A DNA stretch of 56,825 nucleotides from Halorubrum kocurii JCM 14978 (GTDB lineage Archaea; Halobacteriota; Halobacteria; Halobacteriales; Haloferacaceae): NCBI RefSeq assembly GCF_000337355.1, contig NZ_AOJH01000027.1, positions 57,344 to 114,168 on the forward strand, given 5' to 3'. The first letter of the stretch is position 1, and every line of letters starts with the position of its first letter. The position numbers were made by a program, and so were the translations under genes. Positions 8,028 through 19,204 of the stretch are shown here, piece by piece. The notes under the pieces are model-generated. The model worked only from the letters and a program-made list of their open reading frames with translations. It had not been told where the DNA came from and made no database searches.

Positions 8028-8065
8028 GTTCGAGCGAGCGCGACGATCGCTTATAAAAAAACGAC

Positions 8066-8305
8066 GCGGTGGCGCGCCCCGGTGAGCGGCCGCTCGGCCG
8101 CTCACCGACGGTGCGAGGGACGCGGCGAACGCGAGCGGCGAAGCCGCGAGCCGTGAGCCGCGAGGCTGGGGAGGTGTGAGGCTGCGGTGCCGTGCGGGGT
8201 GGGACTCGAAGGGGCAGTCGCGAGGGCGAAGCACGCTGCAGCAAGCACCGCAGCGAGGGAGCGCTAGCGATCGAGTGAGGAGCGCAGCAAAGCGCGCGAG
8301 CCGTC
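8066..8305 (+). repeat. Composite repeat element A: structured module
   Basis: Noncoding. It opens with GCGGTGGCGCG, then hairpin 1 at 8081-8106 (11-bp stem, 4-nt loop), then a second stem near 8135-8147 (GCGGC-GAA-GCCGC), then a conserved G-rich block at 8161-8227 containing CTGGGGAGG, GTGAGGCTG and GGGACTCGAAGGGGCAG. The same parts in the same order occur inverted at 18969-19182 (element B). In B both hairpins are built from different sequence at the same places. The TATA-like run at 8051-8061 could start transcription near hairpin 1. Open frames across it are by-products of high GC. The element may be a structured RNA or a mobile noncoding unit. Confidence 0.6.
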
Positions 8306-8503
8306 GCGACTGGGGCTTTGGAGCCGTTCACCGTCGGGTCACTGTTCGCGTAGTACCGAGCGACTGGGGCTTTGGAGCCGTTCACCGTCGGGTCACCGTT
8401 CGCGTAGTACCGAGCGACCGGGGCTTTGGAGCCGTTCTCCGTCGGGTCACTGTTCGCGTAGTACCGAGCGACTGGGGCTTTGGAGCCGTTCTCCGCAGGG
8501 CCA
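8306..8503 (+). repeat. 54-bp tandem repeat array of element A
   Basis: Units start at 8306, 8360, 8414 and 8468, with an exact 54-bp period: three full copies and one partial. Each begins GCGACTGGGGCTTTGG, has a variable middle, and ends ACTGTTCGCGTAGTACCGA or a close variant. Copies differ by only a few substitutions. An array of the same unit in opposite orientation lies at 18843-18966. The repeats are contiguous, without spacers, so this is not a CRISPR array. The period is divisible by 3, which makes open frames run through it, but no start signal, codon bias or family supports a protein. Confidence 0.85.
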
Positions 8504-8504
8504 G

Positions 8505-8730
8505 CATTGACCTCCTCCCGCGCCTGAAGACGCGGGAATCCCACCACGGGATTTCAGGCCGAGAGCGGCCCTGCGGTTTCAAGACGCATTCGTTCCACGC
8601 GTCCCTTGCTGGGTTTCAGCATCGGCGTGGGTGTCTTGTGGGGCGGTCAAACGCCCCCCATCCTCAGCCGAGTCACGGATAAACAGCCGACAGTAACACC
8701 ACTCGATCAGTTATAAACAGCCGATCAGTC
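8505..8730 (+). mobile_element. IS200/IS605-like element end or MITE remnant
   Basis: Directly after the 54-bp array comes a stretch rich in imperfect hairpins: CCCGCG/CGCGGG at 8517-8536 around CCTGAAGA, then GGATTTCAGG, and a stem near 8640-8662 (TGGGGCG/CGCCCCCCA). CCTCCTCCCGCGCCTGAAGACG resembles the terminal region next to tnpB genes of haloarchaeal IS200/IS605 (IS1341-type) elements, as I recall them. No transposase or TnpB frame is present. ATAAACAGCCGA occurs twice at about 8680 and 8713. This is an inference from hairpin type and wording; it may be a nonautonomous derivative. Confidence 0.4.
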
Positions 8731-18452: not shown

Positions 18453-18767
18453 GGACAGAGGGAGCCCGACTCCCGTGCCTCTGGCATGAGGAAAGTCCCC
18501 CCACCGGCCGGACAGGCGACCGGGCACACGCCCGGAGTCGGAGACGGCTGGCTCTGGAACAGCAACGACACCCCCCGCCCCGATCGATGATCCGAGCGAA
18601 CCGACCCGCAAGGGAAGGGAGTTAACCCGGTGAGAGCCGACGGACGGGAACGGATGGAACGGCGAATCCTCGCCGGTGCAAGTCCGCGCCACAAGGTAGT
18701 CCGGCCACGGCGCGGACGCTCAGCCGAATGTCGGGACGAACCGAAGGGGGCTTACTCCCCTCAGTCC
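18453..18767 (+). ncRNA. rnpB: RNase P RNA
   Basis: The catalytic RNA that trims tRNA 5' leaders. The universal CR-I motif GAGGAAAGTCC is at about 18487-18497. The CR-V and 3' side are seen in AGCCGAATGTCGGGACGAAC and GAAGGGGGCTTACTC. The CR-II/III region shows GCAAGGGAAGGG and GGTGAGAGCC; GGTGCAAGTCCGCGCCACAAGG matches the L15 to P15 specificity region. Helix P1 pairs GGACAGAGGGAG at 18453 with CTCCCCTCAGTCC at 18755-18767, which sets the ends to within a few nt. The protein partner Rpp29 is encoded at 42261. Confidence 0.92.
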
Positions 18768-18842: not shown

Positions 18843-18966
18843 CCAAAGCCCCAGCCGCTCGGTACTACGCGAACAGTTGCCCGACGGCGAAGACCACCAA
18901 AGCCCCAGCCGCTCGGTACTACGCGAACAGTTGCCCGACGGCGAAGACCACCAAAGCCCCAGCCGC
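18843..18966 (-). repeat. 54-bp tandem repeat array of element B
   Basis: Units begin at 18843, 18897 and 18951 (two full, one partial) with an exact 54-bp period, opposite in orientation to the array at 8306. On the minus strand each unit reads GCGGCTGGGGCTTTGG, a variable middle, then ACTGTTCGCGTAGTACCGA. Against element A the ends are almost identical while about 9-10 positions in the middle differ. Copies within B are identical to each other, which suggests local homogenisation. Confidence 0.85.
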
Positions 18967-19204
18967 GAGGACTCGATGGGCTCGCTGCGGTCCTCGTCGC
19001 TCACTTCGTTCGCTCCTGTGGTCCTTGCGTCGCCCGTCTTCGTCCTCGCGGCTGCCCCTTTGAGTCCCGCCCGCACCGCACAGCCTCATGCCTCCCCAAC
19101 CTCGTCGCTGGCGCCGCCGGCGCCAGCGACTCCCTCGCGCGTGCTCCTCGCACCCTTCGGGTGCTCGGAGGCACGCGCCACCGCCTCGTTCACCGGTCCA
19201 TAAC
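18967..19204 (-). repeat. Composite repeat element B: structured module
   Basis: Minus-strand copy of the module at 8066-8305. In its own direction it has GCGGTGGCGCG (19172-19182), hairpin 1 (outer stem 19137-19144 with 19171-19178, inner GCACCC-TTC-GGGTGC at 19150-19164), hairpin 2 (perfect 12-bp stem, 3-nt loop, 19104-19130), then the G-rich block at 19035-19103 with GGGACTCAAAGGGGCAG, then a variable tract and the 54-bp array. A TATA-like GTTATGG at about 19199-19205 lies just ahead of it. The stretch from 18768 to 19274 holds no gene. Confidence 0.6.

Follow-up and report, generated by a model that had tools for sequence, protein, structure and literature searches.

In enterobacteria the BIME/REP sequences, and in Streptococcus the BOX elements, are modular, mosaic repeats that are dispersed through intergenic DNA, form hairpins and vary in their internal modules; REP stems are conserved in sequence, and Y1-type RAYT transposases are tied to them. 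Among the large structured noncoding RNAs of bacteria and archaea, HEARO, ROOL and omega RNAs have a multi-hairpin fold in which covarying stems are combined with conserved single-stranded blocks. For the elements described here, BIME and BOX are the nearest precedent in bacteria, and the nearest among haloarchaea are the PATEs and SMRs. In Haloquadratum walsbyi, PATEs contain near-terminal palindromes related to IS605-type transposons, while SMRs possess terminal inverted repeats (PMC3119063).

The window, meaning the whole stretch of 56,825 nucleotides of Halorubrum kocurii JCM 14978 that was analysed, contains two noncoding elements, A (8066-8503, plus strand) and B (18843-19184, minus strand), the features of which are collected in Table 1. 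Read on their own strands, both start with GGTGGCGCG, followed by hairpin H1, the linker GAGGGA, hairpin H2 and a G block (GAGGYTGGGGAGGYRTGAGG), 3' of which come a GTGCGG-rich linker, GGGACTC(A/G)AAGGGGCAG, hairpin H3 and tandem tail units. The closing helix of H3, CUC(A/G)AAG / CUUUGGAG, is arranged around a GGG/GGG internal loop. Across the family the architecture is H1, GAGGGA, H2, GAGGCTGGGGAGGYRTGAGG, a long H3 and 1-5 tail ends of a 54-57 bp unit, the unit being 54 bp in A and B and 57 bp in most other copies. The original prediction of a common layout, with a boundary, two hairpins, a G block and a 54-bp array, was borne out, and the tract that it had called variable is in fact a third long hairpin, H3. 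It had also described the element as present twice in the window; two copies do occur there, but they belong to a genus-wide family with 71 matches to the 20-nt G block in the genome of origin, or about 70 copies. The TATA-like run expected before each copy precedes A as TTATAA and is missing before B. Finding only the 54-bp unit in related genomes had been named beforehand as a possible refutation, and what these genomes carry is the whole module. Based on comparison of the sequences, we read A and B as copies of a chromosome-resident, protein-free modular repeat whose functional state would be the folded plus strand, most likely as RNA; the family would have entered other haloarchaeal genera patchily, and its present upkeep would need no self-coded mover. 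We place the probability of this explanation as a whole at roughly 0.55.

Table 1. Positions of the parts of elements A and B within the window.
Feature	Position	Strand	Basis or remark
A, TTATAA end motif	8051..8056	+	window sequence; enrichment before GGTGGCG across copies
A, 5' boundary GCGGTGGCGCG	8066..8076	+	conserved alignment start
A, hairpin H1	8072..8114	+	tandem G.A mismatch turned into perfect pairing, as in a minority of copies
A, linker GAGGGA between H1 and H2	8115..8120	+	invariant in module alignment
A, hairpin H2	8122..8161	+	sequence and covariation alignment
A, G block, 20 nt, GAGGCTGGGGAGGTGTGAGG	8162..8181	+	most conserved stretch; genus-wide pattern
A, hairpin H3	8205..8324	+	closed by a helix; contains the GGG/GGG internal loop and an inner ladder bearing tandem G.A
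A, 3' tandem array, 54-bp unit	8306..8495	+	3.5 copies, 96% matches
B, 5' boundary GCGGTGGCGCG	19184-19174	-	window sequence
B, hairpin H1 (carries a tandem G.A mismatch)	19137..19178	-	sequence and fold
B, hairpin H2, 12-bp stem	19104..19130	-	sequence and fold
B, G block GAGGTTGGGGAGGCATGAGG	19084..19103	-	window sequence
B, hairpin H3, GGG/GGG internal loop and inner ladder	18949..19064	-	minimum-free-energy fold equals consensus
B, 3' tandem array, 54-bp unit	18843..18966	-	2.3 copies, 100% matches

A and B lie inverted about 10.3 kb apart and have in common a derived 54-bp tail form, with GTAGTACCGAGCG replacing TTTATAAGCGAGCG, that occurs in none of the other copies read; this common form suggests local gene conversion. 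Directly 3' of array A, TTGACCTCCTCCCGCGCCTGAAGACGCGGGAATCC at 8508-8600 resembles an IS200/IS605-type right end, and right ends of this kind were also seen after copy L052 and within copy L028. Element B is adjoined by an archaeal RNase P RNA (18454-18766, 180.7 bits), for which congeners give matched lengths between about 313 and 410 bases.

In the genome of origin a DNA search returned 51 matches, and a core-pattern search combined with reading of the loci gave 56 copies. All 35 Halorubrum genomes of a class-wide sample carry the G block, at 13-194 copies per genome, and chance is excluded because a reversed control pattern matched once in 292 genomes. The element was found in 52 of 52 congeneric genomes by R1, a covariance model built on the 5' module, and deeper searches of four near-complete genomes gave 75, 104, 126 and at least 150 matches. 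Many draft contigs of the genome of origin (G000) end in or near an element (C33, C45, C49, C52, C57, C68, C79 and C87), and several loci contain N together with a duplicated element fragment, making copy number uncertain and some copies misassembled. Neither the gathering thresholds of Rfam 15 nor relaxed E-values produced a match to the element, the nearest being HgcC at 30 bits (cut-off 50) over 8495-8573; a search of the literature likewise found no description of this large and apparently undescribed repeat family. Outside Halorubrum the family is patchy and is carried by 11 of the 77 genera in the class sample. The named records that match are mostly from Halorubrum, with others from Haloparvum, Halorussus, Halosimplex, Halobellus and one further haloarchaeon; copies from these other genera retain much of the part order, and Halosimplex has a tail array of its own version. 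The patchy genera, together with a range of 0 to 95 copies within a single genus (g23, with species at 95, 45 and 0 copies), show invasion or loss in the past. A spread of this kind looks like that of an invading element, which speaks against a resident family and for a non-autonomous mobile element (a MITE, a PATE or a small mobile repeat) that would be moved in trans and would have the hairpins as its end structures. Mobility is also favoured by the many transposase-free mobile repeats found in haloarchaea (PMC3119063), and by the hisD and RNase P sites, where presence of the element varies and its orientation differs between clades. We nevertheless consider a mobile element unlikely.

The ends of the element bear on mobility as well. 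TTATAA occurs before GGTGGCG 87 times at -35 to -8 across copies, as compared with 8 times at -80 to -46; where present it lies mostly 14-17 nt upstream of GGTGGCG, and it recurs in the 3' unit, 31 nt past the last CTTTGG in 60 of 209 cases. The tail repeat unit spans TTATAA to TTATAA, similarity between copies drops just beyond these motifs, and 50 of 166 copies have the motif at both ends, a further point in favour of a mobile element. The 10 nt beside TTATAA agree at 3.76 positions within an element versus 3.49 between elements, and comparison of the flanks of copies showed no duplicated target extending beyond the TTATAA ends. The 5' end GGTGGCGCG and the end of the 3' unit are not mutually inverted in the copies read, where the terminal inverted repeats of a MITE are therefore lacking. 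Normal promoter spacing is longer than 14-17 nt, and TTATAA was rejected as a promoter of the whole element for that reason; the same short distance weakens the RNA reading.

Searches for an enzyme that could move the element argue against mobility. No match to RVT_1 was found in ten genomes, with positive controls, although eight of the ten have 18 or more G blocks or R1 matches, and a retroelement or SINE-like identity was rejected on this ground. Element motifs were present at 0 of 7 Y1 loci, and one genome (G016) has no Y1 transposase and yet carries 122 G blocks. The Y1 transposase was accordingly dismissed as the mover, being neither adjacent to the elements nor present in G016, and an identity as a PATE or an IS200-IS605 derivative was dismissed on the same two observations.

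We then turn to orthologous sites: in three relatives the flanks of 14 elements could be placed, and 35 intervals were read. An intact 5' module in the same orientation was present in 26 of the 35, while six were truncated and three were empty, and this retention of place and orientation counts against mobility. Identity of the flanks was mostly 85-98% and that of the orthologous G block averaged 96%, whereas orthologous H1, H2 and H3 had mean identities of 63, 60 and 63%, as compared with 65, 58 and 61% for random copies from the same genome. Place and predicted three-hairpin shape are thus inherited, and the hairpin sequences are almost wholly replaced between close species. Under the mobile reading, such rebuilding would come from elements that insert again and again at preferred intergenic targets beside TTATAA and then decay. 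However, the best full-length match between different loci of the genome of origin is about 85%, which indicates no recent burst there and leaves no recent transposition in sight. Vertical descent does occur, because the L026/G005 pair kept both H2 and H3 unchanged. In other cases one H2 is combined with a different H1 and H3 (L010/L018/L047, L020/L025 and L029/L048), a sharing of cassettes that favours the resident repeat.

Two further observations concern modules in and around the elements. At the hisD site of one genome (L208 in G012) there is a solo 5' flank (TTTAAACAGCGGTGAGCGACTGCAACGATCACTTATAAAC) without an element, similar to the flank that precedes several full copies. An 80-nt module (GTCGCAGCCCGCGCAGCGAA...GAGCAGGAACGTCT), which apparently has a closing helix of its own, was noted at L021, L022, L041, L214, L237, L278, L321 (at about 600-700) and L164. 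It occurs as an insertion in elements, where its orientation is the same by 22 to 1, and it was seen once 3' of a tRNA-Gly, between copies of the tRNA T-arm sequence.

With regard to genomic context, the best 150 places in the four near-complete genomes are all on chromosomal contigs, non-chromosomal contigs making up 8-10% of the DNA. Only two plasmid records match, phage records gave zero matches, and viral contigs gave zero matches to the G block and zero to the 80-nt module, all of which is at odds with a mobile element. Confinement of the best matches to the chromosome would instead suit a BIME-like DNA feature, in which structures extruded from the DNA, or sites for proteins, would lie between convergent genes and serve nucleoid organisation or supercoiling relief. 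In a multi-species set, 46 of 110 elements lie between convergent genes, as compared with 99 of 629 element-free pairs, and the genome of origin has 21 convergent, 21 codirectional and 5 divergent placements; gene calls came from a simple codon-usage script and these gene-pair figures are estimates. In codirectional pairs the two orientations of the element are about equally frequent (33 versus 32). Both the convergent bias and this lack of preference are compatible with a DNA feature, as is the distribution in one genome (G050) of its 74 best copies over the whole chromosome, at one per 38 kb; the convergent bias and the chromosomal confinement also count in favour of the resident repeat. However, no clear bias of orientation or spacing was seen along that chromosome, and, as shown below, the kept mismatches pair on one strand only, something that a double-stranded site would not require. 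We regard a DNA feature of this kind as improbable, more so than a mobile element. The equal orientation in codirectional pairs also led us to reject a 3'-UTR element of fixed sense. A coding role was rejected too, for although open reading frames overlap the elements, copies vary by indels and rebuilt stems.

The fold itself was assessed in aligned copies. In 24 copies, 17 of the 26 pairs of H1 and H2 showed double compensatory changes and 93% of cells were paired, versus 22-49% when the partner was slid; in 101 further copies, in an alignment fitted to the model, the counts were 23 of 26 pairs, with 93.9% of cells paired. For H3, 30 copies yielded double changes in 19 of 33 pairs and 97.5% pairing, versus 24-42% when slid, and across genera its closing helix changes in pairs (CUCAAAG/CUUUGGAG, CUCGAAG/CUUCGGAG and CUGAAAG/CUUUCAG). 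Covariation therefore exceeds the slid controls, as expected for a structured noncoding RNA. Alone, B has a minimum-free-energy fold exactly equal to the consensus (z = -5.5), and for A alone the consensus fold is weak (z = -1.65). Two claims of the original prediction hold at this level: the hairpins keep their place with other stem sequences over 24, 101 and 30 aligned modules as well as at orthologous sites, and the covariation that it had asked to be modelled is present. Departures from pairing favour G.U over A.C (51 versus 20) and G.A over T.C (77 versus 9), which identifies the plus strand as the folded one, with the caveat that the plus strand is purine-rich in general. Folding of single-stranded DNA would account for this asymmetry equally well.

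It is known that template switching gives rise to hairpins and preserves them, and a single such event can produce a compensatory change (PMC8794818). Since it can rebuild stems without selection, covariation alone is weaker proof than it appears (PMC8794818), and a neutral turnover can be envisaged in which template switching at quasi-palindromes rebuilds the arms with no selection on the fold. Perfected variants do exist, with six H1s lacking the G.A mismatch and one H3 having CCC/GGG. However, template switching should make mismatches vanish, and these persist: the tandem GA.GA is retained in 80 of 92 H1s and at the two H3 sites in 29 of 30 and 30 of 30 copies (59 of 60 together), and for the GGG/GGG loop of H3 there are 210 retained cases against one that was perfected. 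The stronger evidence for selection, which is needed on top of template switching, consequently comes from the fixed G.A and GGG/GGG mismatches. The persistence of the G block and of part order across genera argues against neutral turnover as well, and we consider this account, largely refuted by the fixed mismatches, to be very improbable.

Returning to a resident repeat, we propose that ectopic gene conversion between copies would swap hairpin cassettes, with crossovers in GAGGGA, the G block, GGGACTCAAAGGGGCAG and CTGGGGCTTTGG, and that template switching would now and then render two arms perfectly complementary. Purifying selection would then discard copies in which the fold, or the G.A and GGG/GGG motifs, had been lost, and some factor may recognise the fold, possibly at convergent 3' gene ends. 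The earlier suggestion of a recombination substrate is likely right as to the mode of evolution, whereas that of a replicating noncoding unit found no support. Neither a reverse transcriptase nor a Y1 transposase accounts for the family. Sequence conservation in these elements is lower than is usual for a functional RNA, which stands against the RNA reading. It is tentatively conceivable, at less than even odds, that the family is a new multi-copy structured archaeal RNA class with one fold at about 13-190 chromosomal loci per genome, retained at their sites from species to species, in which the fold and its non-Watson-Crick motifs would be inherited and the stems swapped as cassettes. If the fold is RNA, it would be among the most abundant structured RNA families of any archaeal genus. 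In either case the family offers a natural experiment: place and fold are inherited and stem sequence is not, so that structural selection and mutagenesis by template switching can be told apart.

Compared with known systems, the Halorubrum elements resemble HEARO, ROOL and omega RNAs in their multi-hairpin fold, covarying stems and conserved single-stranded blocks, and differ from them in having no Rfam 15 match, no associated gene found, up to about 190 copies per genome and stems that are replaced between close species. Perfected arms are in common with template-switch hairpins (PMC8794818), but the Halorubrum elements keep fixed internal mismatches. With BIME, REP and BOX they have in common a dispersed, modular mosaic of palindromic units in intergenic DNA; unlike those of REP, their stems vary freely within a larger fold, and a Y1-free genome contains 122 G blocks. 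Like PATEs and SMRs (PMC3119063), they are haloarchaeal, transposase-free, palindrome-bearing and intergenic, with tens to hundreds of copies, but they have three internal hairpins with fixed non-Watson-Crick motifs, carry a tandem 3' tail, are unconnected with Y1 genes and turn over in place. Membership in PATE/SMR or BIME/BOX fails on these defining features, yet the way of life, modular, dispersed, hairpin-rich and intergenic, is similar.
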